Assembly (NCBI GenBank): GCA_028822155.1
Contig: JAPKEJ010000003.1
Coordinates: 1 to 64,000 of the forward strand
Length of the DNA: 64,000 nt
Direction: 5' to 3'
DNA from: Porticoccaceae bacterium
GTDB lineage: Bacteria > Pseudomonadota > Gammaproteobacteria > Pseudomonadales > Porticoccaceae
Part shown: positions 10,073 through 56,157 of the stretch, one piece after another
Numbering within the stretch: the stretch's first letter is position 1
Layout of the letters: each line of letters starts with the position of its first letter
Made by a program: the position numbers and the translations under genes
Notes under the pieces: generated by a model
The model's database searches: none
What the model saw: the letters and a program-made list of their open reading frames with translations, nothing else
What the model was told of the DNA's origin: nothing

Positions 10073-10090
10073 AAACAATCTTGGCGGTTT
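10073..10090. promoter_or_regulatory. Candidate operator site H (AAACAATCTTGGCGGTTT)
   Basis: Reverse complement AAACCG-CCAAGA-TTGTTT fits the 18-bp motif; upstream of tetR-type gene. Confidence 0.6.
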
Positions 10091-10182
10091 TATATTTTTC
10101 ATCCCTCAAGACATTGGGGTGATGGCTAAGATAATACGATTAAATACGATGGCTCATCAGCCGGTAGAAAATTAGAGAGGGT

Positions 10183-10878
10183 ATGTTAATGTCGGCAAGG
10201 AGCGAAGCGAAGCCTAAGTCAGCAGTGGCGATAAAAGGAAAACGGCCAAAGCGAAACGAAAAAGGCTGGCAGGCTGAAAAGAGCGCGATAACTCGTTCCG
10301 CTATATTGGAAGCGACGATTCAATGCCTTCTGGAGTTGGGCTACGCAAACACCACGACTGCGCTGATTGCTAGTAGTGCGGGCGTCTCTCGCGGTGCCAT
10401 GATGCATCACTTTCCCTCTCGCATGCTCGTCATGAGGGCTGTGGTTGATTTTTTGCACGGACGGCGTTTACGAGAATATCGGGAATTGATGGCAGATATT
10501 GACGAGCCTCAGCAACCATTGACTCATGAGGCTACTGCCAAATCTGTTGAAGCAGCCTGGCGATATGTAAATCTTCCTTCCTTTGTCGCTTATCAGGAAT
10601 TGCTTGCCGCGTCACGTACTGACTTAGAGTTACAGCAAGTTATTGGGCCGGTAGAGAAGGACTTTGAAAAACAATTTCTTGATACAGCCAAGGCAGTTTT
10701 CCCTCATTGGAAAAATATTGCGAGGTTGGAAGGTGCGCATGATATGGTGCATTTTTTAATGAAGGGCATGGCATTAAGTCATATGGATGTGAGGAAAAAA
10801 GCGCGATCTAAGCGTGTCATGGCTTATCTAACGACCATTCTCTCCGACATCTATAAAGAAGCAAACTTAATAGAGTAA
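10183..10878 (+). CDS. TetR/AcrR family transcriptional regulator
   Basis: N-terminal HTH: ITRSAILEATIQCLLELGYANTTTALIASSAGVSRGAMMHHFPSR. Confidence 0.92.
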   Translation: MLMSARSEAKPKSAVAIKGKRPKRNEKGWQAEKSAITRSAILEATIQCLLELGYANTTTALIASSAGVSRGAMMHHFPSRMLVMRAVVDFLHGRRLREYRELMADIDEPQQPLTHEATAKSVEAAWRYVNLPSFVAYQELLAASRTDLELQQVIGPVEKDFEKQFLDTAKAVFPHWKNIARLEGAHDMVHFLMKGMALSHMDVRKKARSKRVMAYLTTILSDIYKEANLIE

Positions 10879-11288
10879 ATTGGATAAATTATTTTTAGAC
10901 TCTTTATGGGCTATTTGAATTAGCTTTTCGTTCATGTTTTAGTTCTTCTCTGATTGGCTCGTAGTCGATGAAATTTAACAGCCCCTTAGCTTATGTATGC
11001 TCCCTCAATCTGTTGGGCGATGAGATTGGGGCCCTAAAATACGCCAAATTCCGATTTTCTTAGTAATCTTTGAAACCTAAAGGCGAGAGTCTAGCCACCA
11101 GTGCTTTTCTTGAAGGTCTTAGGGTCGCAAATGTTGGCTAGTCTCAAGATCTTCCTGAACTTGATATTCTTGACGTGAATTTACCTAGAACCGACGGCTT
11201 GCCCTCTGTCGATAGAGATATCTATGTTTTTGGCATCGTCAATAAAGGAGTTGCAGGTAGTCTCGATTGATAATATGCTTTATAAAAG

Positions 11289-11306
11289 AAACATTCTTGT
11301 CTGTTT
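11289..11306. promoter_or_regulatory. Candidate operator site E (AAACATTCTTGTCTGTTT)
   Basis: Reverse complement AAACAG-ACAAGA-ATGTTT; upstream of the SDR operon at 11365. Confidence 0.6.
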
Positions 11307-11364
11307 TATCGGGCGCTGCTTCAGCATTACTAATGCCGGAGCATAAAAAGTTGTTGTAATAAAA

Positions 11365-12180
11365 ATGGAAGGTTCTCTTATGGGGCGATTAGAAGGCAAA
11401 GTTATATCCATTGTAGGTGCTGCCGGTAAGGATAATATGGGTCAAATTATGGCTCGTCGGTTTGCTACTGAGGGTGCTAAGGTTATTGTGTCTGGTCGTA
11501 ATGAGACTTCTCTACGTGAGCTTGCAGAAGAGATTAATGGGGATTGGGTGTTCTGTGACTTTACCAAGAAAACGTCTATAACCTCAATGATCGATACGAT
11601 TGTTGACCGCTATTCACGATTGGATGTCGCGGTCAATGCAACGGGTTGGGGTCTCTTAGTGCCTCTGGTTGAGAATTCGGAAGCCGACTTAGATCAGATA
11701 ATTGACCTTCAGTTTAAGGGCCCATTTGTGTGGTTACAAAAACTCGTCCAAACCATGGATGCCACTGGTGGCTCTATTATTCAGATTTCTTCGGCTACAG
11801 CCAAAATTATGCTGGATGATCATGCTGCTTATATGGGTACCAAAGCGGGCACAGACCATCTTATTCGATGCGTCGCGAATCAATATGGCCCTAAAGGTAT
11901 TCGCGCCAACAGTATTTCTCCTGGTTTGACTGAAACCCCAATGACTGCCGAGCCTTTAAAGAGTGCTGCACTTCTAGCGGAGTTCGAGAGGGGCTATCCC
12001 TTAGGTCGGATTGGTACGAGTGATGATATAGCTGCGGCTGCTATCTTTTTAGCATCTGACGAATGTTTTATGACGGGTGAAAACCTTCAGGTTAATGGTG
12101 GTCTTTGCTTACGCCGCAATCCACTGGGCACCGAGTTGTTTGATGCAATGGTTGCTGCGGGTGAAATACCTGCAGTGTAG
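11365..12180 (+). CDS. SDR family oxidoreductase, atypical nucleotide-binding motif
   Basis: VGAAGKDNMG near N-terminus, YMGTKAG catalytic YxxxK, ISPGLTETPM. Confidence 0.88.
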   Translation: MEGSLMGRLEGKVISIVGAAGKDNMGQIMARRFATEGAKVIVSGRNETSLRELAEEINGDWVFCDFTKKTSITSMIDTIVDRYSRLDVAVNATGWGLLVPLVENSEADLDQIIDLQFKGPFVWLQKLVQTMDATGGSIIQISSATAKIMLDDHAAYMGTKAGTDHLIRCVANQYGPKGIRANSISPGLTETPMTAEPLKSAALLAEFERGYPLGRIGTSDDIAAAAIFLASDECFMTGENLQVNGGLCLRRNPLGTELFDAMVAAGEIPAV

Positions 12181-12213
12181 AAACTAAAAGTATAATAAAT
12201 TATAGGATAAAAA

Positions 12214-12975
12214 ATGAAACTTAATAATAAGGTTGTATTGATCACGGGTGCTGGTGGCGGTATTGGTCAGGCTGCAGTGAGAAAATTTGTGAGCGAAGGT
12301 GCCAGCGTTATGCTTGCAGATATCGGGACAGATGTTACCCAGCTGCTTGTGGATGAGCTAGGTACTGAGCACTGTGCATGCGTGGCAGTCGATGTTAGCC
12401 AGGCTGATCAGGTTGAGAATATGGTCAGCACCTGCGTTGAGCGGTTTGGTGGCATTGACGTGTTTGTTGCCAATGCGGGTGTTGAAGGTACGATTGGTGA
12501 AATCATCAATACTGATGTGTCTAATTTGGATACGGTGCTGGCTGTAAATGTCAGAGGCGTATGGCTGGGTCTGCATTACGTGATTCCGGTTATGCGCGAC
12601 GGTGGTGGAGGCAGCATTATGATTACTTCATCTGGTGCAGGTGTTAAGGGCTCTCCAAATACTGCCTGCTATAGCACCAGCAAACATGCTGTGATTGGAT
12701 TGATGCGTTGCGCTGCTCTGGAATGCGCGCAGTACGCAATTAGAGTTAATACGGTAAATCCCGGTGCAGTAGATACACGCATGATAGCATCGATTGAAAA
12801 GGGCTTTGCTGACTCTGGTGTAGATGACTTTAAGGGTATGGTAGAGGCTACAACGCCTTTAGGTCGGTATGGGCAGCCTGACGAAATTGCCAATATGATG
12901 GTTTTCTTGGGCAGTGATGACAGTAGTTATTGTACCGGTAGCGTTTATATGGTGGACGGCGGTAATGCGACTTAA
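12214..12975 (+). CDS. SDR family oxidoreductase
   Basis: TGAGGGIG, NAGVEG, YSTSK, VNPGAVDTRM. Confidence 0.93.
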   Translation: MKLNNKVVLITGAGGGIGQAAVRKFVSEGASVMLADIGTDVTQLLVDELGTEHCACVAVDVSQADQVENMVSTCVERFGGIDVFVANAGVEGTIGEIINTDVSNLDTVLAVNVRGVWLGLHYVIPVMRDGGGGSIMITSSGAGVKGSPNTACYSTSKHAVIGLMRCAALECAQYAIRVNTVNPGAVDTRMIASIEKGFADSGVDDFKGMVEATTPLGRYGQPDEIANMMVFLGSDDSSYCTGSVYMVDGGNAT

Positions 12976-13011
12976 TCTTATACTCTTACTAATAATTGAC
13001 GTAAATCTGTT

Positions 13012-13761
13012 ATGACGTTTGATTTTAAAAATAAGGTGGTGCTAATTACTGGTGCTGGCGCTGGTCTGGGCTATGCCTGTGCTTTGGCCTTTGCCAATGC
13101 CGGAGCTAAAGTCACGATAACTGATATTTCTAAAAATGCTTTAGATAAAGCCATAGTTGCCCTGCGAGATACTGGCGCGGAGGTATTGGGTTTGCTAAAT
13201 GATGCTAGTGATTCTGCTGATGTGAATATCTTACTTGATGCGATCATTATGCGCTTTGGTCGGCTCGATATCGCGGTGAATAACGCGGGGATAGGAACGC
13301 CATTGCAGGAATTTCATGAGATCGGTGAGGCTGAGTTCGATCGGGTAATCGCGGTTAATCTAAAGGGTGTATGGCTCTGCATGCAGGCAGAAATCCGCCA
13401 AATGCTAAAGCAGGGCGGGGGGCGCATCGTAAATATGGCCTCTGCGACTAGTCGTAACACTTATCCTAATGCCTCATCCTATGTCACCAGCAAATTCGCC
13501 GTGGCGGGATTGACTCGGACAGTAGCGGTGGAATATGCCGAACGAGATATTCGTATTAATGCGATATGCCCGGGTAATGTTGCCACCCCCCTGGTTGTTA
13601 GCCTTGTTGAGGACCTATCGGTTTTGGCAACAAAGCATGCTATGAAGCGCCTAGGTACACCTGAAGAGGTGGCCAACGGCGTTATGTTTTTAGCTTCGGA
13701 CTTATCATCTTTCAGTACCGGAAGTCTGCTTGAGGTCGATGGAGGCTGGAACGCGACATAA
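13012..13761 (+). CDS. SDR family oxidoreductase
   Basis: TGAGAGLG, NNAGIG, YVTSK, CPGNVATPL. Confidence 0.93.
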   Translation: MTFDFKNKVVLITGAGAGLGYACALAFANAGAKVTITDISKNALDKAIVALRDTGAEVLGLLNDASDSADVNILLDAIIMRFGRLDIAVNNAGIGTPLQEFHEIGEAEFDRVIAVNLKGVWLCMQAEIRQMLKQGGGRIVNMASATSRNTYPNASSYVTSKFAVAGLTRTVAVEYAERDIRINAICPGNVATPLVVSLVEDLSVLATKHAMKRLGTPEEVANGVMFLASDLSSFSTGSLLEVDGGWNAT

Positions 13762-13800
13762 GCACTCACTTGAATTTTAACAATAATAAGGAATATATAT

Positions 13801-14562
13801 ATGTCTAGATTATTAAACAAAGTTGCGATTATTACGGGTGCAGCATCTAATCCAGGCCTTGGTCACGCTACGGCGGTTCGCTTTGCACAAGAGGGCGCCA
13901 AGTTGGTGATCACCGACATCGATATGGTTGGATTGGCAGCTGCGGAAAAAGAGCTAATTGCTTTGGGTGCTGAGGTATTATCGATGGAGCAAAATGTTGT
14001 CGATGAAGAGCGTTGGCAGGAAGTTATTGATGCTACCGTAGAGCGTTTTGGTGGGCTGGATATTCTGGTCAATAATGCAGGCATCGCGCTGATGAGACCT
14101 ATTAGCGAGTATTCGATGGCGGATTATGATCTGCAGATGGATGTTAATATTCGTAGCGTTTTTCTTGGTTGTAAAAAGGCGCTGCCAGCAATGATCGCTT
14201 CGGGAGGTGGCTCTATTGTCAATATGTCTTCTGTTGCGGCTCTGCGCGGAATTCCAGGTGTGTCGGTGTACGGTATTGCTAAAGCTGGCGTGCAAATTTT
14301 CAGCAAGGGCGTGGCGTTGGAGCATGCAGCTGATGGAATTCGTTGCAACTCGCTTCATCCTGGTTTAATTGACACTAATATACAAAATGATTCGCGGCGC
14401 GACAATCCAGGCGAGTTTGAGAAGCTGGGTGCAGCAGTGCCATTCGGACGCATGGGGTACCCAGTGGAAGTGGCTAATTGTGTATTATTTTTGGCTTCTG
14501 ATGAATCTAGCTATGTAACTGGCGCAGAGCTGGTCGTGGATGGCGGTCTTATCCAAAAGTAA
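13801..14562 (+). CDS. SDR family oxidoreductase
   Basis: TGAASNPGLG, NNAGIA, YGIAKAG, HPGLIDTNI. Confidence 0.92.
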   Translation: MSRLLNKVAIITGAASNPGLGHATAVRFAQEGAKLVITDIDMVGLAAAEKELIALGAEVLSMEQNVVDEERWQEVIDATVERFGGLDILVNNAGIALMRPISEYSMADYDLQMDVNIRSVFLGCKKALPAMIASGGGSIVNMSSVAALRGIPGVSVYGIAKAGVQIFSKGVALEHAADGIRCNSLHPGLIDTNIQNDSRRDNPGEFEKLGAAVPFGRMGYPVEVANCVLFLASDESSYVTGAELVVDGGLIQK

Positions 14563-14683
14563 TACTAGGAAGCAAGTGCCAGCTTGATGTGTTCTAAAGA
14601 ATTCAAATCAGTGAATTTGTAAGTTGGCCAGGCAGTAATTTATTAGTTTGTGTAACAGCATAGATAACTAGGGTGGTTACAAC

Positions 14684-16027
14684 ATGAGTTCACAATCTGA
14701 GACATCTCGGTATGCCAAGGGCTTTGATCTCCCTGTACGTGGCGATACGATTACAGCAGATCGGTATGTTTCCCGCGAGTTTATGGATCGTGAAAACCAG
14801 CATTTGTGGCCGAAAGTTTGGCACCTTGGTGGCATGGTCGCCGAGATTGTGCAGGCGGGTGATTATGTTCGCCATAACTTGGGTAAAGAATCGGTCATTA
14901 TGGTTGGCCAGGCCGATGGGTCCATTAAAGCATTTTATAATTCCTGCCCGCACCGCGGCAACCGCCTAGTGCTAGGGGATATCGGTGGCAGCGATAGAAT
15001 CACCTGCGGCTATCATGGCTGGCAGTTTTCCCCCGATGGTGTGCTGATCAGTGTTCAGGATCCCGATGACTTTCCCGACGGTAATCCTTGCGGAAAAGTA
15101 ACGCTCACAGAGGTGCGCTGCGAGAGCTGGGGACCATTTATATTCTACTGCATGGATGAAGATGTCGCGCCATTATTGGATTGGTTGGCGCCCTTGCCCG
15201 AACGCCTTAAGAGTTATGGCTTGGATAATTGGATAAGAGTGATGTGCCTGTCAGCCGATGCGGGCTTTAATTGGAAAATTATTCGGGATAACTTCAATGA
15301 AAGTTATCATTTGCCAACGATCCATCCAGAATTGTCGACTTTTATCAATGATGGTCTGTCCGACACGTTATTTGAGATGTATGAGACTGGCCACAACTCC
15401 ATGTGGATGAAAGGTCATCAGGCCACTACTAGAAATCCGGAGTTTGAAACTGGAGAGGTCCCCGCGCCCCTGGACGATGTGGCTCGAGCTTGGGGTCTTG
15501 ACCCTAAGGACTATAATGGTCATACCGGAGATATTCGCGAGGCCATAGTGGCCGCCAAGCGCCGTATGGGTCCTGATATAGGCTATACCAATTACAAAAA
15601 TATGAGTGATCAGCAGCTGGTTGATTATTTCCATTGTACGCTATTCCCCAATCTGACGATTACCATGTCACCCGAGCAGTGTCAGATTTTGCGTACTGAA
15701 CCCCATCCTAGCGATCCTCAAAAATGTGTTTTCCATCACTGGGTGCTAGCGCCACCAGTTGAGGGTATGAACGAAGTAATCACACCTATTGGACCAATGC
15801 CGCTGGAATGGGCTGAAAATCGCCACAGTGTGTATGGCGATGGTCAGTCAGTAGGTTATGTGGCGGATCAGGATCTCAGTATTGGCACCAGCCAGCAGGA
15901 GGGGCTTAACTCTCGAGGATTCAAAGGCTGTATTTTGACTCATCAAGAGAAGCGAGTGCAGCGGTTTCATGAGCTGCTCAATGACTATGTAGGCACTGAT
16001 ATCATAAATTCTGACCAGTTGAGGTGA
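14684..16027 (+). CDS. Rieske non-heme iron oxygenase, alpha subunit
   Basis: Rieske CPHRGNR...CGYHGWQF and mononuclear Fe motif DNFNESYHLPTIH. Confidence 0.93.
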   Translation: MSSQSETSRYAKGFDLPVRGDTITADRYVSREFMDRENQHLWPKVWHLGGMVAEIVQAGDYVRHNLGKESVIMVGQADGSIKAFYNSCPHRGNRLVLGDIGGSDRITCGYHGWQFSPDGVLISVQDPDDFPDGNPCGKVTLTEVRCESWGPFIFYCMDEDVAPLLDWLAPLPERLKSYGLDNWIRVMCLSADAGFNWKIIRDNFNESYHLPTIHPELSTFINDGLSDTLFEMYETGHNSMWMKGHQATTRNPEFETGEVPAPLDDVARAWGLDPKDYNGHTGDIREAIVAAKRRMGPDIGYTNYKNMSDQQLVDYFHCTLFPNLTITMSPEQCQILRTEPHPSDPQKCVFHHWVLAPPVEGMNEVITPIGPMPLEWAENRHSVYGDGQSVGYVADQDLSIGTSQQEGLNSRGFKGCILTHQEKRVQRFHELLNDYVGTDIINSDQLR

Positions 16028-16032
16028 TACAG

Positions 16033-16545
16033 ATGTTCAAAGTTAGTCTTGTCGGATTAATTGTTTTTTGCATGACGTCCTTGGCTTTTACCGAAGATAA
16101 AGTCCCCAAGAGGAATCCACTGGCACTGATGCGTGCCGACCATATTATGATTTCAACCGCTGACTACAGTGCCACTGTGGAATGGTATCGTAGTATTCTC
16201 GGTTTTGAAATTGTGCGTGAATGGGCTATAGATGGCTATCCAGATGTGGAGGTGGGTTATATCTCTGCCAATGGTTTTATGATTGAGATTGTTGGCACCA
16301 AAGAGTCATTTCAGGATGAAAAGGTAGCACCAGATGTGTTTACCGCCATGTCTGATCGCGGCTATGTGCACTTAGCCTTTAAAAGCGCTGATGTGGATGC
16401 GGTGGCTGTGGAACTGACTCGCCGTGGTGTTGAACTGGAACTGCCGCCTACCAATTTCGATGCGGCGGGTGTTCGACTTTTATTTATTCGTGATAACAAT
16501 GGCAATCTTATTGAGATTGTCACTCCGCTCTCTGCTGATAAGTAA
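16033..16545 (+). CDS. VOC (glyoxalase/dioxygenase superfamily) protein with putative N-terminal signal sequence
   Basis: MFKVSLVGLIVFCMTSLAFTED hydrophobic N-terminus; ADHIMISTADYSATVEWYRSILGFE and IRDNNGNLIEIV. Confidence 0.8.
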   Translation: MFKVSLVGLIVFCMTSLAFTEDKVPKRNPLALMRADHIMISTADYSATVEWYRSILGFEIVREWAIDGYPDVEVGYISANGFMIEIVGTKESFQDEKVAPDVFTAMSDRGYVHLAFKSADVDAVAVELTRRGVELELPPTNFDAAGVRLLFIRDNNGNLIEIVTPLSADK

Positions 16546-16550
16546 TCATT

Positions 16551-18302
16551 ATGAATTTATTACCGAGTTTAAATTTTCTGCTGCGAGCCTTTTTGTTAAT
16601 GGTGCTTGCTGGTGCTGGCTGCGCAGAACGGCAGGCTCTTGACTCTAATGTAGCTCTATCAGGAACAGTCTCTTCCGCAGATGAAGGGCTGATGGAAGGC
16701 GTCGTGGTAATTCTTCGAAATCTAAATAGTACGGTGCTAACTGCCGTGACTAGTGATTCTGCTGGCCATTTCCAGTTTAATCAAGATCGAGTGACTGGCG
16801 GCGATTACGAAATCAGCGTACGTGCTGTGGGCTATGAATTACTGGGCGCCAAGATCATTGTGATTGACGAAAAGCAGTCTCAAATTTTGGGCGATCTGAT
16901 CCTAACTTCGGTCATCGAACCCTTACGTCTGGCCTCTCAGCTGACCTCCTTGGACTGGGTGAAAAGCTTCCCTGGAACCGAGTTAGAAAAAGATTTATTG
17001 GTAAAAAATATGGTTAACTGTGGCTTCTGCCACAGTCTTGAGCGTATAGCCCGCTCAGCCTATAACGCGGAGGGCTTTGAGCAGATAATACAGCGCATGC
17101 ATACCTATGAGACAGATCATTCTTCCGCTAATCGCATTCAGGTCGTCTCAAAACCCAAGCCGATCGAGGGATTGATTTGGTATGGACGAAAAGCCTCTGA
17201 TATTGCAGAATACTTGGCGACGATCAATCTAAGCGGCGGTAAATCGCAATGGGATTATCCACTACAAACATTGCCTCGGCCCTCGGGCGAGGGCACTAAT
17301 GCCACGGTCACTGTCTATCCGATTCCCCGTCAGCCCAGTGTGATCCATGATTTGGATGTAGATTCAAAAGGTAATGTCTGGTATGGCAATACTGGCTGGG
17401 ATTTCATTGGCAAACTTGATCCCCGCACTGGCCAGTTTTCAGAATGGGACGCGCCAAACTTTCTGCCCGAGCCGACAGAAGGCCTTATGCGTATTGTTGG
17501 GGTGCAGGATATTCAGGTGGATGAAACGGATACTGTTTGGGTCGCGGTAATGGGTAATAAGCATGCGTCTTTTAAACCCGATACCGAGATCTGGCAGACA
17601 TATGATCTCCCTGTGATTTGGAAAAATCCCTTTCTTGGTCCCGTAAGGGCGGGTGAAGGCGGACTCTGGGCCACGGGCATCACCTCAGTGCCTGAAGGCC
17701 CTATTCGCCATGAGCATGCCTTCCGTTTTGACATCAAAACAAGTGCAGTGGATGCAGGTATTATGCTGTTTGATGATAAACCATTTCCCACAGACCCTGA
17801 TCGAGTTGGCCAATTAAATTACTGCTACATGATGGACCAGGATGCTGAGGGAAACTTTCTCTGCACTGCCCCTGAAGCTTCGTCTATTGCTCGCTCAGAC
17901 GGACAGGGCAATGTTCGGCTGGTGCCCACGCCCACGCCTAATGCCTATCCTAGACGGGGTTACAGAGACGCTAACAACCGTTTTTGGTTTACCGAATTCT
18001 TTGCCGATAACGTTGCTGTTATTGATTTGGATACCGACAACATTACAGAGTACCCGCTGCAGCCCAGGCATATTTCGCCTTATTACGCACGGCCAGATCG
18101 CACCGGTAAAATTTGGATATCCAGCACAGGCTCAGATCGCTTATTGCGGCTAGACCCTGAAACGGGCGGGGTAGTGAAGTACCTGATGCCAGTGGAGTAT
18201 GACGCGCGAAAAGTGGTGGTAGATAATTCTGCTGATCGTATTACGGTCTGGTTACCCAATAAAAATCATGGGCAGCTGATTCGGGTCGAGGTGGCTAATT
18301 AA
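16551..18302 (+). CDS. Exported/lipoprotein-like protein: carboxypeptidase-regulatory-like domain + CXXCH heme site + Vgb/SMP-30-like beta-propeller
   Basis: N-terminal hydrophobic segment ending AGC; SGTVSSADEGLMEGVVVILRN...; CGFCH at 17019-17033; repeated WYGNTGWDFIGKLDPRTGQ/IWISSTGSDRLLRLDPETG. Confidence 0.78.
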   Translation: MNLLPSLNFLLRAFLLMVLAGAGCAERQALDSNVALSGTVSSADEGLMEGVVVILRNLNSTVLTAVTSDSAGHFQFNQDRVTGGDYEISVRAVGYELLGAKIIVIDEKQSQILGDLILTSVIEPLRLASQLTSLDWVKSFPGTELEKDLLVKNMVNCGFCHSLERIARSAYNAEGFEQIIQRMHTYETDHSSANRIQVVSKPKPIEGLIWYGRKASDIAEYLATINLSGGKSQWDYPLQTLPRPSGEGTNATVTVYPIPRQPSVIHDLDVDSKGNVWYGNTGWDFIGKLDPRTGQFSEWDAPNFLPEPTEGLMRIVGVQDIQVDETDTVWVAVMGNKHASFKPDTEIWQTYDLPVIWKNPFLGPVRAGEGGLWATGITSVPEGPIRHEHAFRFDIKTSAVDAGIMLFDDKPFPTDPDRVGQLNYCYMMDQDAEGNFLCTAPEASSIARSDGQGNVRLVPTPTPNAYPRRGYRDANNRFWFTEFFADNVAVIDLDTDNITEYPLQPRHISPYYARPDRTGKIWISSTGSDRLLRLDPETGGVVKYLMPVEYDARKVVVDNSADRITVWLPNKNHGQLIRVEVAN

Positions 18303-18325
18303 AAATTTTCATATTAAGGGAAATA

Positions 18326-21201: not shown

Positions 21202-21245
21202 TTTTTACTCGTTTTAAATATTAACGAATTAATAGGAGAACTAAC

Positions 21246-27678: not shown

Positions 27679-27696
27679 ATACAAACAAGGTTGTAT
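27679..27696. promoter_or_regulatory. Candidate operator site D (ATACAAACAAGGTTGTAT)
   Basis: Perfect arms ATACAA/TTGTAT, spacer ACAAGG; between divergent TonB receptor and acyl-CoA ligase. Confidence 0.6.
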
Positions 27697-43596: not shown

Positions 43597-43614
43597 AAAC
43601 AATCTCAGTTGATT
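43597..43614. promoter_or_regulatory. Candidate operator site G (AAACAATCTCAGTTGATT)
   Basis: Arms AAACAA/TTGATT (one mismatch), divergent intergenic region. Confidence 0.5.
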
Positions 43615-46056: not shown

Positions 46057-47070
46057 CTATAAGTCGATTTTAACCAGCGCTTTACCCACAGTTTTACCAG
46101 ACATCAACTCACAAAAAGCAGTAGGCGTATTAGCGAACCCTTCTGTAATATTTTCTATCACGGTAATATCTCCCGCCCGAATCCAGTCCTCAAGCTGGGC
46201 CATGGCCGCTGGTACTTTTGCTTGATACGTGGGCAACAAAAAACCCTGCATGGTGAGCTGCCGTGACACCATTTCCCAAAGGTTGGTAATCGGGTTTGGG
46301 TTGTCGGTACGATTGTAATCGGAGATCATGCCGCAACCGACAATGCGCCCATAGACTTTCATGGCGGGGAGCATAGCGTTCAGCACTGGGCCTCCGACAT
46401 TATCAAAATAAATATCTGCACCCTCTGGTGCAATGGCTGTAACAGCGCCGGTAATATCATCTGTCTTGTAATTTATGGCAGCATCAAAACCAAATTCATC
46501 TACGATCAGCTGTGCTTTTTCATCGCTGCCAACAATGCCGATTACGGTGCAGCCACAGAGCTTGGCAATCTGTCCTGCCATGCTACCGGTGGCCCCTGCG
46601 GCGGCACTAACCACCACTGTCTGCCCCGCTTGAATCTGGCCTACTTCATGCAAGCCGATATAGGCTGTGGCACCCGCGCCGCCCAGTGCACCCACATAGT
46701 ACGAGATGGGTACGCCGACTTTTGGCCTTAGCTTTTCCAGTAATATGGCGTCGCTGTGGCAGATGGAATAGTCTTCCCATTGGTTGAGGGCAAAAACAAA
46801 ATCACCCTCAATAAAATCATTGTTGCGGGACTTTATAACCTGCCCCACCGACGGGCCGCGGATCACACCGCCTATGGGGATTGGCTCGAAGTAGTTGGCC
46901 TTGCCATCGACCCAGCCACGAATCGCGGGCTCCATGGAGAAGTACATATTGCGCAGTAGAAACTCGCCTTCGCCGGGCTCGGGAACAGGGCCTTCTGACA
47001 GGGCAAAGTTTTCTGGCTGAGCAGCGTCAGTGACATAAGAGGCGAGGACCACTTGGCGATTATTTTTCAT
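46057..47070 (-). CDS. NADP-dependent MDR-family oxidoreductase
   Basis: VSAAAGATGSMAGQIAKLCGC, YFDNVGGPVLNAML. Confidence 0.9.
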   Translation of the reverse strand: MKNNRQVVLASYVTDAAQPENFALSEGPVPEPGEGEFLLRNMYFSMEPAIRGWVDGKANYFEPIPIGGVIRGPSVGQVIKSRNNDFIEGDFVFALNQWEDYSICHSDAILLEKLRPKVGVPISYYVGALGGAGATAYIGLHEVGQIQAGQTVVVSAAAGATGSMAGQIAKLCGCTVIGIVGSDEKAQLIVDEFGFDAAINYKTDDITGAVTAIAPEGADIYFDNVGGPVLNAMLPAMKVYGRIVGCGMISDYNRTDNPNPITNLWEMVSRQLTMQGFLLPTYQAKVPAAMAQLEDWIRAGDITVIENITEGFANTPTAFCELMSGKTVGKALVKIDL

Positions 47071-47072
47071 AG

Positions 47073-47387
47073 TTAATCCAGCTCTATTTGTAGATTGCCG
47101 TTATCAGCCAGACTGACATCATAGGTTTTAAGTGGCACTCGAGTCAGCTCACCCAAGGGCTTGCCGGTGCGCAAGTCAAAGCGCACACCATGCAGTGGGC
47201 AGGCTAGAAAACAGTTTCTAATCCGGCCGCCGGTTAGTACTGCTCGCTGATGAGTGCACAGATTAGCCACGGCATAAAAGTCTCCATTAGCATTACAGAT
47301 AAGGATATTTTTCCCGTCCAGGGTGACAGCAACTGTTTGGCTGTTGGTGATATCGGTTGCGAGAATTAATGTATCTGTCGTTGCCAT
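47073..47387 (-). CDS. Rieske [2Fe-2S] ferredoxin-type protein
   Basis: CTHQRAVLTGGRIRNCFLACPLHGVRFDLRTG. Confidence 0.9.
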   Translation of the reverse strand: MATTDTLILATDITNSQTVAVTLDGKNILICNANGDFYAVANLCTHQRAVLTGGRIRNCFLACPLHGVRFDLRTGKPLGELTRVPLKTYDVSLADNGNLQIELD

Positions 47388-47464
47388 AGAAATCTCATGA
47401 ATTAAATTGTAGGCTTAAGAATAGCCGAGCCCAGGGGGAAGCTGGAACTCGGCAGTAAAAATCT

Positions 47465-48847
47465 TTAGGCATTGAGGTATTTGTCAATTGATTGGTGCAG
47501 ATGGCGAATACGGCTCTCTTGATAGCTTGCCAGGCTTACCGCCCCTTTTCTGGACGCGATCATGCCTTTCTGTACTGCGGCCATATTGCTATCGTCCTGA
47601 TCAAATACCGGGCCCAGGCCACCGATTTCTGGCGCCTCACTAAAGGCTTGATCTGGACGCAGGGTGTTTTTCATCGCGGGCTCTGGACGCTTGGTACCTT
47701 TGGGGTAGCGCATCAGAATCATGGTTTCGAAGATACAGCTATTGTGGTCGTCACCGTTAGGCAGAAAGCGATAGACAATATTACCGTGGTACCCAGTCCA
47801 TACCTGAGTATTGGGGAACAGCATATAAAGTATGGCGTCTTCCAGTTCTGACTTGGTGGCCTGATCTAGGGATTCGCCAATAATCTCACCAAACATTTCT
47901 CGGTTGGTCTCTGCCACATAGGTACGTGCAGTGAGGCCCTCGGGCATTTCATGGCCTTCGGCGCTATCGGTTGCCATACGGCCCGACAGCTCAAGAATGT
48001 CGCGCATGGTCTCAGCTTCAGTGACTTCAGGCATATGCGGGCTGGGCACACCCATAGGGGTGACAGAACGGCTGACATGATCGCCAAAGGTGTCGTACTG
48101 GGAGTTGGCATCACCGGTAAAGGTGAGGATTTCGCTATGGGTTTCTAATGTGTGGAATGATTCCATAAAGGCCTCAGCACCGACTTTCCAGTTGCATTGA
48201 ACCACGCGCTCAACATGGGCACCTTTGTAATAGTCGTGCAGTGGGAAGCGGGCGAAGTGCTCTGGCAGGGGGCTGAGGTAGTCTTCCAGAGACACGCAGT
48301 TTTCATCGAAGTTAATAAAGATAAAACCACCCCAGGTGCCGACTTTTACCTGCGGCAGGCTCATATCTTTTTGGTCTAAATGGCTAAAGTCCCATTTGCA
48401 GGGGATGCCTTTAAACTCACCGTTAATATCCCAGGTCGCACCGTGGAAGGGGCAGACAAATTCTTCGGCATGGCCATCGCAGTCGCGCAGTATGCGGCCG
48501 CGATGCAAGCAGGAATTGATAAAGGCTTTAAATTCATTTTCACCGGTGCGGGTAACAATAATTGACTGGTCGACGATCTCATAAATATGGTGGTCGCCCA
48601 CCTCAGGAATATCTTCTTCGCGACAGGTCATTTGCCAGACTTTGGGCCATAGCTTTTTCTTTTCTAGCTCGTGAAAATCACGGTCAATCCAGCGTCCTAC
48701 ACCTATGTCCTCGTCGCCCATGTAGGGGTTGGTGTTTTGGCGCAGGTAGGCTGGCACTTCAATAGTTTCGTCGTCAAGTAGATCCTGATAGCTCAGGCCT
48801 TCGCAGCGGGCTTCACCCTGCTGTTTTACTTTAATTAATTCAGACAT
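47465..48847 (-). CDS. Rieske non-heme iron oxygenase, alpha subunit
   Basis: CLHRGRI...CPFHGATW and EAFMESFHTLETH. Confidence 0.92.
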   Translation of the reverse strand: MSELIKVKQQGEARCEGLSYQDLLDDETIEVPAYLRQNTNPYMGDEDIGVGRWIDRDFHELEKKKLWPKVWQMTCREEDIPEVGDHHIYEIVDQSIIVTRTGENEFKAFINSCLHRGRILRDCDGHAEEFVCPFHGATWDINGEFKGIPCKWDFSHLDQKDMSLPQVKVGTWGGFIFINFDENCVSLEDYLSPLPEHFARFPLHDYYKGAHVERVVQCNWKVGAEAFMESFHTLETHSEILTFTGDANSQYDTFGDHVSRSVTPMGVPSPHMPEVTEAETMRDILELSGRMATDSAEGHEMPEGLTARTYVAETNREMFGEIIGESLDQATKSELEDAILYMLFPNTQVWTGYHGNIVYRFLPNGDDHNSCIFETMILMRYPKGTKRPEPAMKNTLRPDQAFSEAPEIGGLGPVFDQDDSNMAAVQKGMIASRKGAVSLASYQESRIRHLHQSIDKYLNA

Positions 48848-48874
48848 AGAATTTACTCCTGCTTATTGTTTTGA

Positions 48875-50017
48875 TTATTTTGTAATAATATTGACACCAC
48901 TGATACCCGGGGCACCATAGACATGGGTATAGCCAACTTTGGGCTCATTAGGCACCTGTCGAGCGCCACCTTCACCGCGCAATTGCACGCATACTTCGTA
49001 CACCTGACGCAGGCCAGAGGCCCCGACCGGTTCACCATTGGCTAAACAGCCGCCATCGGTATTAATGGGTAGGCGGCCATTGATGCCAGTGGCGCCTTCT
49101 CGGAGCAGTTTTTCCTGCTCGCCATGTTCGCAGAAACCATTTTCTGCCATATGCATAATTTCTGTGCCGCTGTCGGTATCCTGAAGCTGCATAACATCGA
49201 CATCTTCCGGGCCAATACCAGCCTGCTCAAAAGCAGCCTTAGAGGCGGTGACTGTTGGCGCATCGGCGACCTGCATTGCCTGAGAAGGGGCGAATACTTC
49301 GAAACTGCCGTAGTGGCGAGTGCGCACGGCGGCAGCTTTTAGAAATAAGGGGTTACTGCAGTACTGATGAGCTTTGTCGGCATTGCAAACAATCAGCGCC
49401 GCGCCACCTTCGGCAGGGCTGCAGAACATATATTTGCGCAAAGGATCGCTGACCATCATCGAGTTGGCAATCTCTTCATAGCTCAGGGCCTGCTGGCGCC
49501 AAGCGGTTGGTGTCAGTGAGCCATTAGTAAAGGCTTTTTCGGAAACGCGAATCAAGGCGTCTTCGGTAATACCGTGATCGTGCATATAGCGCTGGGTCTT
49601 AAGCGCAAAAAACTGGGTGGTGAGCATCAATCCGGTCTCTCCATACCAGTCATCCAAACCCCATTCTTTGGGTTGAGGATTAAAAGCGCCGCGGGGATGT
49701 TTGTCGAAACCAACCACAACGCCTACATCATACTCGCCGGATTTAATCGCACTGTAGGCGGCATGCAATGAACTGCCACCAGTGGCACAGCCATTCCAGA
49801 TGTTGGTAAACTGTAGGCCGGTAAGACCCAGCTCATTCACTAGCGAGTCGGCATTACCGCCGTCCTGACTGCCGCCATAGGCGAATTGCATATCCGCCCA
49901 AGAGAGGTCGGCATCGGCAAGAGCTGCGCGCACGGCGGAGGCTCCCTGCTGCATGCCAGACATGTCGGGGGAGCGACCAAAGCGATGGAGCCCTATACCT
50001 ATAATTGCTACATCCAT
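48875..50017 (-). CDS. Thiolase-like / lipid-transfer protein (SCP-x/Ltp type)
   Basis: IWNGCATGGSSLHAAYSAIKSGEYDVGVVVGFDKHPRG, GGCLANGEPVGASGLRQVYE. Confidence 0.87.
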   Translation of the reverse strand: MDVAIIGIGLHRFGRSPDMSGMQQGASAVRAALADADLSWADMQFAYGGSQDGGNADSLVNELGLTGLQFTNIWNGCATGGSSLHAAYSAIKSGEYDVGVVVGFDKHPRGAFNPQPKEWGLDDWYGETGLMLTTQFFALKTQRYMHDHGITEDALIRVSEKAFTNGSLTPTAWRQQALSYEEIANSMMVSDPLRKYMFCSPAEGGAALIVCNADKAHQYCSNPLFLKAAAVRTRHYGSFEVFAPSQAMQVADAPTVTASKAAFEQAGIGPEDVDVMQLQDTDSGTEIMHMAENGFCEHGEQEKLLREGATGINGRLPINTDGGCLANGEPVGASGLRQVYEVCVQLRGEGGARQVPNEPKVGYTHVYGAPGISGVNIITK

Positions 50018-50020
50018 AAT

Positions 50021-50452
50021 CTATGCTTTCCCTGCCGAACTAAAACTAAATGTCATTTTTTGATCGCCGTTTTCGTCAGTACGAAACGGAATAATATCCA
50101 GCTTCATGAGCATGCCAATCTCCAGTTGGTCCGGACTGTTGGCTTGCAGACGAGCTTCGACGCGCACGCCACCGGGCATTTCCACATAGCCAACGCCGTA
50201 GGGGCGAAATGTCTCTGGGGTTTCATCGCTGTGATAGGGCTGCTTGGGCATGAATGTCTGTATAGTCCAGGTCCACAATATGCCGTGATCACCCAGCTCC
50301 ACAATAGTGGTATCCCGCGATCCGCAGCTGCGACAGTCAGGCTGCGCAGGGAAAGCGGCTTCAGCACATTGGGTGCATCGGCTACCCAGTAACTGAGGCT
50401 TACTGCTAGGCCAGGTAAATAAGCCTTCGTGCAATGCAATTTGATTACTCAT
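50021..50452 (-). CDS. Zn-ribbon/OB-fold (DUF35-type) acyl-CoA-associated protein
   Basis: GSRCTQCAEAAFPAQPDCRSCGS zinc ribbon followed by OB-like region; adjacent to thiolase. Confidence 0.88.
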   Translation of the reverse strand: MSNQIALHEGLFTWPSSKPQLLGSRCTQCAEAAFPAQPDCRSCGSRDTTIVELGDHGILWTWTIQTFMPKQPYHSDETPETFRPYGVGYVEMPGGVRVEARLQANSPDQLEIGMLMKLDIIPFRTDENGDQKMTFSFSSAGKA

Positions 50453-50461
50453 AAATCGACT

Positions 50462-51853
50462 CTATTGATGTATTGAAAGGCCGAGGCTATCTAATACAGA
50501 CTCGTGCATACCTTCAGAAACTGTGGGGTGGGCGTAAATGGTATGCGCAAGCTCCTGCGCTGTAGCCTTAAGCTGTTGCGCTATACCAAAACCCTGAATT
50601 TGTTCAGTGACTTCTGCGCCAATCATATGGGCGCCCAGTAGTTCGCCTGTATTAGTATCAAATACTGTTTTGACCAGCCCTTCGCCTTCATTAATCGCGA
50701 GAGCCTTGCCGTTGGCACCGAGGTTAAAGCGTCCGACTCTAATACTATGACCGGCCGCAGTGGCTTGCGCTTCGGTGAGTCCGACACTAGCAATTTGCGG
50801 GCGACAGTAGGTGCAGCCCGGTATCTGATCTTTATTTAAGGGATTAACACCTTCGACACCGACAATTTTTTCGACACAGATAACAGCTTCGTGGCTGGCT
50901 TTGTGAGCTAACCATGGGGGACCTGCGACATCGCCAACAGCATATAATCCCGACAGATTGGTTTTGCCAAATTCGTCGGCGATCAAAAAGCCTTTGTCAG
51001 TAGCGACACCGAGTCTCTCAAGACCGAGGCGCTCAATATTACCCCTGATACCGACAGCCAAAATCACTTGATCAAACATCAGAGCCTGTTGGCCGTCTGG
51101 CCCAATAATGTGCGCCACAGTCTCTGCGCCTGCGCGCTCAACAGATTGGACCAAGTTGTTGGTCAGTACTTTGATACCACGCTTCTTGAAGGATTTTTCA
51201 GCTATCTGTGAAATTTCGGGATCTTCTGCCGGCGTGATTCGTTTTTCTGCTTCGACGAGGGTGACATTGGTGCCTAGGTCGTTGTACAGGCTGGCAAATT
51301 CGACGCCAATAGCACCAGCGCCTATCACTAGTAAGTTCTTTGGCATGATCGCGGGCGTCATGGCTTCGCTAGCTCCCCAGACAAGGTCACCGTCGATCTC
51401 GATGCCGGGTAGATTGCGGGCCCGCGCGCCTGTAGCAAGGATAATATGCTTGGCTTTGTACTGTGTGACTTTACCTTCCTGCATCACGTCGAGTAGGCAT
51501 TTTTCGGCCAGACTCGCGGTGCCGTCAATCACTGTGATATTGTTTTTTTGCATCAGGTAGGCAACACCCTTGCTCAGTTTGCTAACTACCGAACGACTGT
51601 GCTGCACCAGCTTGTTGATATCAAAGTTAATATTATCAATGGTAAATCCGAAGTGCTTTGCCTCTTTTAAAGTATGGGCGATATCGGCGCCGCGAAGCAG
51701 GGCCTTGGTCGGGATACAGCCCCAGTTTAAACAGACACCACCGAGGTGCTGCTTTTCAACTAAGGCGGTTTTAAGACCCAGTTGAGCTGCACGGATAGCC
51801 GCGACATAGCCTCCGGGACCACCGCCAACGACGATAAGGTCATATTGCTGCAT
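50462..51853 (-). CDS. lpdA: Dihydrolipoyl dehydrogenase (E3)
   Basis: GGVCLNWGCIPTKALL redox motif, TNLSGLYAVGDVAGPPWLAHKASHE, YAHPTVSEG. Confidence 0.95.
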   Translation of the reverse strand: MQQYDLIVVGGGPGGYVAAIRAAQLGLKTALVEKQHLGGVCLNWGCIPTKALLRGADIAHTLKEAKHFGFTIDNINFDINKLVQHSRSVVSKLSKGVAYLMQKNNITVIDGTASLAEKCLLDVMQEGKVTQYKAKHIILATGARARNLPGIEIDGDLVWGASEAMTPAIMPKNLLVIGAGAIGVEFASLYNDLGTNVTLVEAEKRITPAEDPEISQIAEKSFKKRGIKVLTNNLVQSVERAGAETVAHIIGPDGQQALMFDQVILAVGIRGNIERLGLERLGVATDKGFLIADEFGKTNLSGLYAVGDVAGPPWLAHKASHEAVICVEKIVGVEGVNPLNKDQIPGCTYCRPQIASVGLTEAQATAAGHSIRVGRFNLGANGKALAINEGEGLVKTVFDTNTGELLGAHMIGAEVTEQIQGFGIAQQLKATAQELAHTIYAHPTVSEGMHESVLDSLGLSIHQ

Positions 51854-51868
51854 AGTCAGTCCTACTCC

Positions 51869-53353
51869 TTATACCAGCATGGGCGCAGGCTGCTCAAGAT
51901 AACCTTTAAGAACAGACATAAATTGCGCGGCGATAGCACCATCAATAATACGGTGATCGCTGGATAGGGTTAGGCTCATCACAGTTGCTATCGCCAGCTC
52001 ACCATTTTTGACTACAGAGCGCGGTTCGCCAGCGCCCACGGCCAAAATAGCACCCTGAGGTGGGTTAATGATTGCGTCAAACTGTTTTATACCGTACATA
52101 CCCAGATTAGAAATACAGAAACTACCACCCTGAAATTCGTCGGGCTTGAGACGGTTTAGTTTGGCTCTGGTGGCAAGATCACGTATTTCATTGGAAATAG
52201 CTATCAGGCCCTTGCGGTTTGCCTGAGTAACGATAGGCGTAATTAAGCCATCATTGATAGCGACTGCAACACTAATATTGGCATCGTTAAAATAGGTTAT
52301 CTGTTCACCGTCAAACTGCACATTCAGCGCGGGGATTTTGATCAGTGCGCTGGCGCAAGCTTTAACAATAAAATCATTAACCGAGATTTTAGCCTCTGAA
52401 TTATCGCTATTGACTTGTTTGCGCACGGCCAGAAGATTGTCTAGTTCTACGTCAATTTGCACCCGGTAATGGGGCGCGGTTTGCTTCGACGACTGCAGTC
52501 GCATGGCAATGGACTTGCGCACACCACTAATAGCATGAGACTCAGAGCTAACTGCTAATACAGCATCGACACTTCCGGTAGATTGGGCTGGCAACCTATT
52601 CTTCAGCGCAACTGCGGCCTCAACATCGGCTTTGCAGACTCGCCCTCGATCTCCACTGACTCGGCATTCGAGCAGATTAATACCCAACTGCTCTGCGATA
52701 CGCCGTGCGACTGGCGTTGCTTTAACATTGCTGTCATCGCCGTATCGAATTTCAGAAGGGGCCGCACTATTGGTATCCAATAGTCTGCCACCGAAGGCGG
52801 TAACGGCAGCTTCCAAGTCGCGTTTGGATACTCGTCCATGGCGGCCTGTACCGGTTATGTTATTTAGATTCACGCCATAGTCTACTGCTAGGCGACGGGC
52901 GACAGGAGAGGCTGAGACATGCCTGTCGTCCTCCCCTTCGGCTAGTTTTTTGGCATTGCTGCTCGAGGACTGCGGTGGTGACGCGGTGGTGATAGCGTCA
53001 ATAGCAGTTGCCTCTGGCGTAGTCAATTCAGCGGTGGCACCTTCTGATGTCTCAACGACTTTGTGGCTCGCAATAAACGCCTGAATATCTTCGTCACTAG
53101 TATCCGCTGATGCCAGCACTGCCAGAATGGAACCTACACGATGAGTTTCACCAGGATGCGCAACAATAGCCCGCAGAATGCCGCTGTCTGATGCGGTAAC
53201 TGTATTGACGATCTTGCTAGTTTCGACATCCACTAGATCGTCCTCGACGTTGACCTGATCGCCTATTTCGATGTGCCAGAGATTGATTTCACCTTCGGAC
53301 ATTTCCATACCCCATTTGGGCATATCGACCGACTTGATTTCATTTATCATCAT
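51869..53353 (-). CDS. 2-oxoacid dehydrogenase E2 (dihydrolipoamide acyltransferase) with two E3-binding domains
   Basis: Lipoyl motif DVETSKIVN, two PSBD-like segments, catalytic SSDHRIIDGA. Confidence 0.94.
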   Translation of the reverse strand: MMINEIKSVDMPKWGMEMSEGEINLWHIEIGDQVNVEDDLVDVETSKIVNTVTASDSGILRAIVAHPGETHRVGSILAVLASADTSDEDIQAFIASHKVVETSEGATAELTTPEATAIDAITTASPPQSSSSNAKKLAEGEDDRHVSASPVARRLAVDYGVNLNNITGTGRHGRVSKRDLEAAVTAFGGRLLDTNSAAPSEIRYGDDSNVKATPVARRIAEQLGINLLECRVSGDRGRVCKADVEAAVALKNRLPAQSTGSVDAVLAVSSESHAISGVRKSIAMRLQSSKQTAPHYRVQIDVELDNLLAVRKQVNSDNSEAKISVNDFIVKACASALIKIPALNVQFDGEQITYFNDANISVAVAINDGLITPIVTQANRKGLIAISNEIRDLATRAKLNRLKPDEFQGGSFCISNLGMYGIKQFDAIINPPQGAILAVGAGEPRSVVKNGELAIATVMSLTLSSDHRIIDGAIAAQFMSVLKGYLEQPAPMLV

Positions 53354-54390
53354 TAGGCTCCCAATACTTCCCGAACAGCGGCAAGAACTTTATCCACGTT
53401 TGGAACGTAGGCGTCTTCTAATTCAGGGGCAAAAGGAACCGGCGTATGTGGTGCAGTAACAGTGCGAATCGGCGCCCGTAAACTATAGAAGCCTTTTTCA
53501 GCAACAATGCCGGCGATGTCTGAGGCAAGGCCACAGCGAGGATTACCTTCGTCAACCACAACCAGTCGGCCAGTGACTTCGACGCTCTCAAGAATTGCCT
53601 CGTCGTCCAGCGGTGATACGGTGCGTGGATCGATAACGTCGCAAGTAATACCTTCTTTAGCCAGAATGTCAGCTGCGGCGATGGCGTGGGTAACCATATT
53701 GGATATGGCAACTATCGTTACATCTGTGCCCTGGCGCGGAAACGCAGCCTCACCAAAGGGGATAGCGTACTGTTCGTCAGGTACTTCACAGGCATTATCG
53801 TACATGACCTTATGTTCAAGGAAAATAACTGGATCGTCATCCCGAATAGCCTGGACCATCAAGCCCTTGGCGTCGTAAGCATTGCTAGGCATTACCACCT
53901 TAAGGCCAGCAATATGGGTCACGATTGAGTGCAGCATACTAGAATGTTGAGCGCCGGCACGCCAGCCTGCGCCGACGGTACCGCGAATCACCATAGGGGT
54001 TTTTGATTTGCCACCGAACATATAGCGAAATTTAGCTGCCTGATTAAAAATTTGATCGAATGAGACGCCGATAAAGTCAAAAAACATAAGTTCTGCCACC
54101 GGCCGTAAGCCATTGTTGGCAGCGCCGGCCGCAGCACCGATAATAGCCGCCTCACTAATAGGTGTGTCTATTACTCTCTCGCGACCAAATTCTGGCATCA
54201 GGCCTTTTGTAATACCAAAAACACCACCATAGGCATCGTCTTGGCCATCACAACCTGCACCACCGGAAACTTCTTCTCCCAGAATGATAACGGTTGGATC
54301 GCGGCGCATTTCTTCACGCAAGGCATCATTAATTGCTTCACGGATAGTCTTCAGTGAAGTCTTACCGGCTATATTTGAATTGTTAGTCAT
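53353..54390 (-). CDS. 2-oxoacid dehydrogenase E1 beta subunit
   Basis: REEMRRDPTVIILGEEVSGG, GVFGITKGLMPEFGRERVIDTPISEAAIIGAA, DPRTVSPLD; start at MTNNSNIAGK. Confidence 0.94.
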   Translation of the reverse strand: MTNNSNIAGKTSLKTIREAINDALREEMRRDPTVIILGEEVSGGAGCDGQDDAYGGVFGITKGLMPEFGRERVIDTPISEAAIIGAAAGAANNGLRPVAELMFFDFIGVSFDQIFNQAAKFRYMFGGKSKTPMVIRGTVGAGWRAGAQHSSMLHSIVTHIAGLKVVMPSNAYDAKGLMVQAIRDDDPVIFLEHKVMYDNACEVPDEQYAIPFGEAAFPRQGTDVTIVAISNMVTHAIAAADILAKEGITCDVIDPRTVSPLDDEAILESVEVTGRLVVVDEGNPRCGLASDIAGIVAEKGFYSLRAPIRTVTAPHTPVPFAPELEDAYVPNVDKVLAAVREVLGA

Positions 54391-54400
54391 TTTAGTACCC

Positions 54401-55372
54401 TTAGTATGAGCAGTAGACATCGGACAAAAGGTCCGTGGCGGGATCTGGGTGCGGTGCAACCAAAGCGTCCGCAACAGCTTTTTCTATTTCAGCCATTATT
54501 TCTTTGTCAATCTTGTTCATGGCCACGGCTTTTAGCCAGCCTTCAGCGATAACGCGCTCGCGGAATATCTTTAAGCAGTCCTGGCTCTTGCGAGCATCTT
54601 TAATTTCATTGGTACCACGATAAAGCTGGGGGTCACCAATGAAATGACCGTCGAAACGCACACACATGGCTTCGATCGCTGTAGGGCCTCCGCCATCACG
54701 CGCTCGTTGAGTCGCTACTTTCATCGCTTCGTAGGTGGTAAAGAAGTCGAGGCCATCAATACACTCAGCAGGCATACCAAAACCGGCGTTGCGATCGGTC
54801 AAACTGTCGCAACCGAGACCGTACTTGGCGGCAGTACCTTCGGCATAACCATTGTTTTCATAAACAAATACATGGGGCAGCTGTAACACAACCGCTAGGT
54901 TCATGGCTTCCATTACAGTACCTTGGTTAGCACTGCCATCACCGTTAAAAGACACTGCGACATTTTTAGTACGCAAGGTCTTGGCTGCTAGGGCAGCACC
55001 GTTAACCAGAGGGGGGCCGCCACCAACAATAGCATTAGCGCCAAGCATGCCTTTGTCGATATCAGCGATATGCATGGAGCCACCTTTACCTTTGCAAAGG
55101 CCGGTAGATCTGCCCATGATTTCTTTCATCATGCGACCAATGTCACAGCCTTTAGCTATGCAATGGCCATGGCCGCGGTGGGTGCTGCCGATAATATCTT
55201 TGTCGCTTAGGTCAATACAAGAGGCAACTGCGATTGCTTCTTGACCGTTAGATACATGAACAAAACCTGGAATATTCCCTCCCATGAATTCTTTAACGCA
55301 ACGCTCTTCGAACTCGCGAATGGTTTTCATCGAGCGATAGGCTCTGAGTAGAAAATCAGTTTGATACGGCAT
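54401..55372 (-). CDS. 2-oxoacid dehydrogenase E1 alpha subunit
   Basis: TPP motif GDGSANQGTVMEAMNLAVVLQLPHVFVYENN, STHRGHGHCIAKG. Confidence 0.94.
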   Translation of the reverse strand: MPYQTDFLLRAYRSMKTIREFEERCVKEFMGGNIPGFVHVSNGQEAIAVASCIDLSDKDIIGSTHRGHGHCIAKGCDIGRMMKEIMGRSTGLCKGKGGSMHIADIDKGMLGANAIVGGGPPLVNGAALAAKTLRTKNVAVSFNGDGSANQGTVMEAMNLAVVLQLPHVFVYENNGYAEGTAAKYGLGCDSLTDRNAGFGMPAECIDGLDFFTTYEAMKVATQRARDGGGPTAIEAMCVRFDGHFIGDPQLYRGTNEIKDARKSQDCLKIFRERVIAEGWLKAVAMNKIDKEIMAEIEKAVADALVAPHPDPATDLLSDVYCSY

Positions 55373-55411
55373 GGAGATGCCCCTTTGTTAGATTAATTAC
55401 AGGCTGTTTAA

Positions 55412-55451
55412 ACTATACATCTTTTAAGTAAAAAAACAAACATGATGGTTT
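55412..55451 (-). promoter_or_regulatory. Promoter with overlapping operator site A (operator 55434-55451)
   Basis: Minus strand TTGTTT -16 nt- TATAGT; operator AAACAA-ACATGA-TGGTTT overlaps the -35. Confidence 0.65.
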
Positions 55452-55634
55452 GGTAATATTCTAATCCAAAAAGAAGGATAATAGACGCCGTTGCACATTT
55501 ATTTACTAGTGTTTTTGATAGCAGGCTAATCAATGGAGGTAAAGGTTTCGGGTATAAACTGAGACCTAATAAAGGCGTCACTCTTTAGGCTTATCGCTGA
55601 TGGAATTTCGTGTTCAAAATCATTCCAGCATCAC

Positions 55635-55955
55635 CTAAAATTGTGTTGTAGGCAGATGCACGACCAAGCCATCGAGTTCGCTGGTAACCACGACTTGGCA
55701 GGATAGGCGACTATTACCCTTTGGCTCGGCTACACAGGTCAGCAAGTCGTTTTCCATCTCGCTGGCAGCGTCGACTTTATCTACCCAGCTTTCGTCGATA
55801 TAGCAATGGCAGGTAGCGCAACTACATGACCCGCCGCACTCAGCGACAATTCCTTCTACCATATTATCCACAGCGGCTTGCATCAGAGTAGTGCCGATTT
55901 GAACATTGATTTCTTGATGGTTACCGTTAGCTTCTATGTAAGTGACTGAGGGCAT
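55635..55955 (-). CDS. [2Fe-2S] ferredoxin, adrenodoxin/putidaredoxin type
   Basis: AECGGSCSCATCHCYI and RLSCQVV cluster ligands. Confidence 0.93.
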   Translation of the reverse strand: MPSVTYIEANGNHQEINVQIGTTLMQAAVDNMVEGIVAECGGSCSCATCHCYIDESWVDKVDAASEMENDLLTCVAEPKGNSRLSCQVVVTSELDGLVVHLPTTQF

Positions 55956-56117
55956 ACTTAGATTCCGTAATAAGTTTATTTATCGAGCCTTATTAGGTTT
56001 TGGCAAAACCAGCTAGGCCATAGTTTGTGCTGTCAATCATGCCTGGCTAAGAAGCGCCTTTAACAACAACGGCTCATTAGCTTGTTGCTCTGGGTGTTGC
56101 TGCGACCTGGGATCAGC

Positions 56118-56157
56118 ACTATACATCTTTAGAAATAAAAAACAAACAAGACGGTTT
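56118..56157 (-). promoter_or_regulatory. Promoter with overlapping operator site B (operator 56140-56157)
   Basis: Minus strand TTGTTT -16 nt- TATAGT; operator AAACAA-ACAAGA-CGGTTT overlaps the -35. Confidence 0.65.

Follow-up and report, generated by a model that had tools for sequence, protein, structure and literature searches.

The principle of a TetR protein that represses its own catabolic cluster via repeated palindromes is already well known. EdcR of Caenibius tardaugens, a TetR repressor of oestradiol catabolism (PMC8700777), resembles the regulator described here: this TetR-family protein is encoded within a catabolic cluster, where a palindrome precedes several operons and, in less conserved form, its own gene (PMC8700777). 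By contrast, EdcR has the operator TnnCnnTACnAnTnGTAnnGnnA and a TetR_C_11 domain, whereas the present regulator is associated with AAACANNCNNGNNTGTTT, carries TetR_N only and has no TetR_C_11 match in Pfam; thus, it does not group with the EdcR-type steroid regulators. The efflux pump repressors TtgR and SmeT (the latter taken here to be structure 2w53) are the best helix-turn-helix (HTH)-level matches among solved structures, but the similarity is confined to N-terminal residues ~23-102 instead of spanning the full length and no efflux pump is found among the annotated targets. The camphor-responsive CamR of Pseudomonas putida (PMC4592980) exemplifies a TetR-like control tied to CYP101 (P450cam), and the P450 of the present locus is CYP101-like; however, the island here is much larger, and the likeness is drawn at the level of description. 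KstR and KstR2 of mycobacterial cholesterol catabolism are likewise TetR-type repressors of large dispersed catabolic regulons (PMC3068626). The similarity of KstR2 to the island TetR is at the HTH level only (1e-5). The operators of KstR and KstR2 probably also differ from that of the island.

The regulator is encoded in a 46-kb catabolic island within a 64,000-nucleotide stretch of the genome of a marine SAR92-clade bacterium of the Porticoccaceae (the window). Pfam detects the TetR_N HTH domain (PF00440; 3.5e-11, 43.1 bits compared to a cut-off of 24) as the sole domain of the protein. Since the regulator falls far below the cut-off of every matched NCBIfam family (at best 40.8 bits compared to 150 among the named TetR subfamilies BetI, AcrR, RutR, AcuR, ScbR and others), matches solved structures at the HTH level only and differs from EdcR, it is apparently, as far as the searched libraries show, a subfamily not yet described, although its kind is very familiar. 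Within those libraries, no description of this subfamily or its operator was found, and nothing specific was found on DUF3604 with Rieske genes or on SAR92 regulons. As is typical of the family, a palindromic operator lies near the regulator gene and upstream of its homologues. The TetR is most probably an autoregulated dimeric repressor that controls an island-wide catabolic regulon through AAACANNCNNGNNTGTTT at nine or more intergenic sites, a reading drawn from sequence comparison.

Predicted operator sites and motif of the island

The first-pass annotation described a seven-copy inverted repeat in the window. All seven quoted 18-mers are found exactly as given (operators A to E, G and H in the table), each is intergenic, and the genes named as their neighbors lie downstream as stated, with identities confirmed by Pfam. 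The count itself was too low: at least nine sites are present, as conserved sites at 27477 and 40102 are added, with a weaker one at 29411.

Table. Regulator gene, operator sites and predicted target operons of the window.
Feature	Coordinates	Strand	Context and support
TetR-family regulator, proposed operator binder	10183..10878	+	Pfam TetR_N; homologues with motif upstream
Operator H	10073..10090	-	Upstream of TetR gene; a top match in matrix and genome-wide model scans; also upstream of TetR orthologues
Operator E	11289..11306	-	Upstream of SDR/Rieske/DUF3604 operon; 0 mismatches in pattern scan; kept in relatives
Operator, new	27477..27494	-	Upstream of TonB receptor gene (25171-27375); kept in G011, G022, G025, G021
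Operator D	27679..27696	+	Upstream of acyl-CoA ligase gene (27824-29410); overlapping register 27683-27700; kept in G011, G025, G021
Weak candidate operator	29411..29428	-	Upstream of Rieske oxygenase gene 29650-31110, which is missing from compared relatives; 14.2 (matrix from relatives' TetR promoters), 11.7 (seven-site matrix)
Operator C	31326..31343	-	Upstream of ACAD/SDR/P450 operon; kept in loci of five relatives
Operator, new	40102..40119	-	Between divergent SnoaL/ABM/Rieske genes (36638-39979) and MDR gene 40216-41232; kept in G011, G022, G025; below the E=10 threshold in genome-wide model scan
Operator G	43597..43614	-	Between divergent SnoaL gene (43121-43534) and MDR operon (43693-45929); kept in G011, G022, G025
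Operator A	55434..55451	+	Upstream of E1a-E1b-E2-E3-OB-thiolase-Rieske operon; best window match in relatives' matrix, seven-site matrix and genome-wide model scans; kept in G011, G022, G025
Operator B	56140..56157	+	Upstream of Fer2 ferredoxin gene (55635-55955); high score in window; no equivalent upstream of the ferredoxin gene in G011, G022, G025
Predicted target operon	11365..22013	+	SDRs, Rieske oxygenase, VOC protein, Vgb-lyase-like protein, DUF3604, SDR (Pfam); operon structure inferred from gene spacing
Predicted target operon	31369..36562	+	Two ACADs, two SDRs, CYP101-like P450
Predicted target operon	46057..55372	-	E1a, E1b, E2, E3, OB-fold protein, SCP2-type thiolase, Rieske oxygenase, Rieske ferredoxin, MDR

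Matches to AAACAA-N6-TTGTTT with at most two mismatches number 16 in the window, of which 14 are intergenic, although intergenic DNA makes up only ~5.4 of the 64 kb (~8%); other arm spacings give 3-13 matches. A matrix of the seven sites finds 15 intergenic matches of at least 10 bits, whereas 300 symmetric column permutations average 0.8 and never exceed 8. Independent tests weigh more than this comparison, since the seven sites feed their own score. A second matrix drew its training sites solely from the DNA preceding TetR orthologues in other genomes within the genus. All twelve of its highest-scoring matches in the window are intergenic, which runs counter to the equal density in coding regions that the annotation had named as grounds for rejecting the motif. 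Because two of the sites are each matched in two overlapping registers, the twelve come down to ten distinct places; these include all seven earlier sites, 27477, 40102 and the weaker 29411. The training sites were chosen by similarity to the arms of the first-pass motif and come from TetR promoters only; that they predict different promoters, including the C8 and G11 positions not used in the choice, provides real support.

A chance origin of the sites in AT-rich intergenic DNA is very nearly dismissed by these data. The intergenic DNA is 62% AT and two-mismatch matches do occur at other spacings, but this origin is contradicted by Markov and permutation controls, by conservation in orthologous and non-orthologous promoters, and by the genome-wide restriction of the motif to the island. 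A further site at 5633, near prfB, scores 12.4 and has a high score again only in G023 (14.1); it is taken as chance.

The by-eye consensus proposed at first, AAACAA-ACAAGA-TTGTTT, is refined here to a conserved core formed by the 18-bp palindrome AAACANNCNNGNNTGTTT. The sites upstream of TetR homologues were picked by the seven-site matrix, so their column figures partly reflect that matrix. In this set, columns 1, 2, 4, 5, 8, 11, 14, 15, 16, 17 and 18 stand out most, and mirror complementarity is strong at positions 1, 2, 4, 5 and 8. In a Novosphingobium group both outer half-sites are altered together, to AGACA...TGTCT, as expected for a dimer. The symmetry of the operator fits binding by a TetR dimer.

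Variations in the length of the motif are also noted. Two registers 4 bp apart are readable at several sites (27679-27700, 11285-11306 and 55434-55455), and the TonB/ligase site of relatives is a 22-bp palindrome, AAACATACAACCTTGTTTGTTT; both arrangements possibly accommodate two overlapping dimers. In L154 (of G059), L077 and L079, the TetR-promoter site is lengthened to a near-perfect 30-bp palindrome, CCGAGTAAACAATCACGATTGTTTGCTCGG.

Conservation and co-occurrence with the regulator

Nine TetR copies of 75-82% identity are found in 8 of the 34 genus members sampled, and two more genomes also carry the TetR; these relatives belong to the SAR92 clade/HTCC2207 group. The lysS-ung island is syntenic in G011, G022 and G025. 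Matching sites of the relatives precede the TetR gene, the SDR operon, the TonB and ligase genes (two sites), the ACAD pair, both MDR genes and E1alpha. Thus, the absence of conservation that the first-pass annotation had considered damaging is not what the relatives display, and orthologous sites precede the same operons. Control promoters in or beside the island score below 9 in the compared relatives, except for one match near prfB in G023, and the promoter of 58832 scores 9.9-10.4 in two genomes. The TetR-promoter site is missing or weak in some relatives (6.3 in G025 and 10.4 in G028). All TetR-positive genomes searched within the genus carry the island Rieske gene (at least 88% identity); beyond these, it is found in only two incomplete assemblies. 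One relative (G021) carries the TetR locus and adjoining island genes twice (L030 at G021:C12 and L031 at G021:C69), with differing TetR-promoter sites.

Whole-genome scans used a sequence-only model built from 24 sites, with the best 150 candidates scored per genome, such that weak sites can escape. The genome of the window has 12 model matches (strands counted apart), of which 11 fall at eight island sites; the sole non-island match (C64:26521) is inside an open frame. Five TetR-positive genomes have 10-16 matches each, mostly in the island, with four further places elsewhere in G025, and five TetR-negative genus members have 0, 0, 0, 0 and 1. In G059, which was outside the training set, the matches span C6:41.5-83.3 kb, where its Rieske, DUF3604 and TetR orthologues also lie, with one match elsewhere. 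A pattern scan with at most one mismatch is not decisive alone: 17 sites are found in the genome of the window, 7 of them in the island, compared to 3-11 in TetR-negative genomes. Nine of the non-island pattern matches were examined, and include seven in open frames, one resembling a ribosome-binding site and one that is intergenic. The scans of genome and relatives proposed with the first annotation thus reveal a motif that is concentrated in the island and tracks the presence of the TetR.

Beyond the genus, ~85,000 genomes were scanned by HTH peptide patterns, a method that favors proteins with the same recognition helix, and 80 loci with TetR homologues were identified, down to 34% identity. 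The hosts include Pseudomaricurvus, Aestuariicella, Zhongshania, Luminiphilus and other Halieaceae, Shewanella corallii, Aromatoleum/Azoarcus and, among the alphaproteobacteria, Novosphingobium and Hellea. With the seven-site matrix, a site of at least 12 bits lies within 350 bp upstream of 67 of the 77 distinct homologues, compared to a mean of 0.4 and a maximum of 19 for 300 permuted motifs; shuffled upstream sequences reach 12 bits in 9 of 1560 cases. The motif is retained upstream of homologues down to ~37% identity in gamma-, alpha- and betaproteobacteria, while the adjoining genes vary. Strong sites of these loci also precede Rieske, SDR, ACAD, TonB, acyl-CoA ligase, E1alpha and MDR genes, and in several genera the TetR gene is divergent from an E1-E2-E3-thiolase-Rieske operon with the site in between. 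For the homologue G042, which comes from another family (39% identity), no site lies nearby. Two contigs labelled as Verrucomicrobia and Flavobacteriaceae MAGs (L101 and L122) carry the TetR at 53-58% identity and look like binning errors.

The assignment of the motif to this TetR, which the first annotation had marked as its own deduction, is strengthened by these distributions. The sites could instead be real operators of another transcription factor, encoded elsewhere, that co-regulates the TetR gene and the island; the genome has further TetR genes with 28-37% identity in the HTH region, and the pairing of TetR and operator is itself deduced from sequence. Such a factor is highly improbable, however, as TetR homologues of three proteobacterial classes retain the motif upstream despite changing neighbors, and as significant matches are nearly absent from the five genus members that lack the TetR.

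Predicted regulation and pathway

The TetR is predicted to bind the palindrome as a dimer and to place nearly all operons of the island under control as one regulon. When no inducer is present, operator-bound dimers would shut the promoters for uptake (TonB), activation (acyl-CoA ligase), oxygenation (Rieske and the CYP101-like P450 with ferredoxin), beta-oxidation-like steps (ACAD, SDR and thiolase) and 2-oxoacid dehydrogenation (E1-E2-E3), and that of tetR itself. A pathway substrate or intermediate bound at the C-terminal domain would then release the TetR from its operators, the presumed ligand class being alicyclic or terpenoid-like compounds or their CoA esters.

The TetR is read as a repressor because of family precedent, as most investigated members are repressors (PMC3511530). 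Activation of the island by the bound TetR, or a mixture of activation and repression, is unlikely but has some basis: some family proteins activate, such as AtrA (PMC3511530), and the site-to-start-codon distances vary from ~43 to 185 bp. Against this, sites upstream of tetR itself fit negative feedback, in addition to the family precedent. Sigma-70 scans did not place promoters relative to the sites.

The proposed regulon includes four Rieske oxygenase genes, the P450, a Fer2 ferredoxin, SDRs, ACADs, a CoA ligase, a TonB receptor, an SCP2-type thiolase with an OB-fold partner and a pyruvate-dehydrogenase-like E1-E2-E3 set. The closest solved relatives of the P450 are P450cam and CYP101J2. 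A terpenoid-like or other alicyclic compound would suit this gene set and is our guess for the substrate. The island also holds MadL/MadM malonate transporter genes and a second AMP-ligase (22139-24861), which are missing from the compared relatives; this segment is a lineage-specific insertion in which no operator of its own was found. The fourth Rieske oxygenase gene (29650-31110) and an ACAD pair (56264-58621) are missing from the syntenic islands of G011, G022 and G025.

The motif and target list provide a means to search for an apparently uncharacterized TetR subfamily of coastal marine bacteria (SAR92 and OM60/NOR5). Because pathway genes carry this operator, it can delimit the extent of the catabolism, guide the search for substrate and inducer, and could become a biosensor part. 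Tentatively, and with the balance somewhat against it, the subfamily may serve specifically to switch an undescribed pathway that degrades terpenoid-like or other alicyclic compounds; it would be common to SAR92, OM60/NOR5, Zhongshania and relatives and occur in altered form in sphingomonads and other Proteobacteria. If so, the operator would label pathway genes in whatever genome they occur, and remote additions, for example at the pntA-like site of G025, would be among them. This site (L150, G025:C6:506372-506392) is the strongest of all genome-wide model matches. It falls beyond the island and precedes a gene that resembles NAD(P) transhydrogenase subunit alpha (pntA) as judged by reading the sequence; it is a possible remote target that supplies NADPH.
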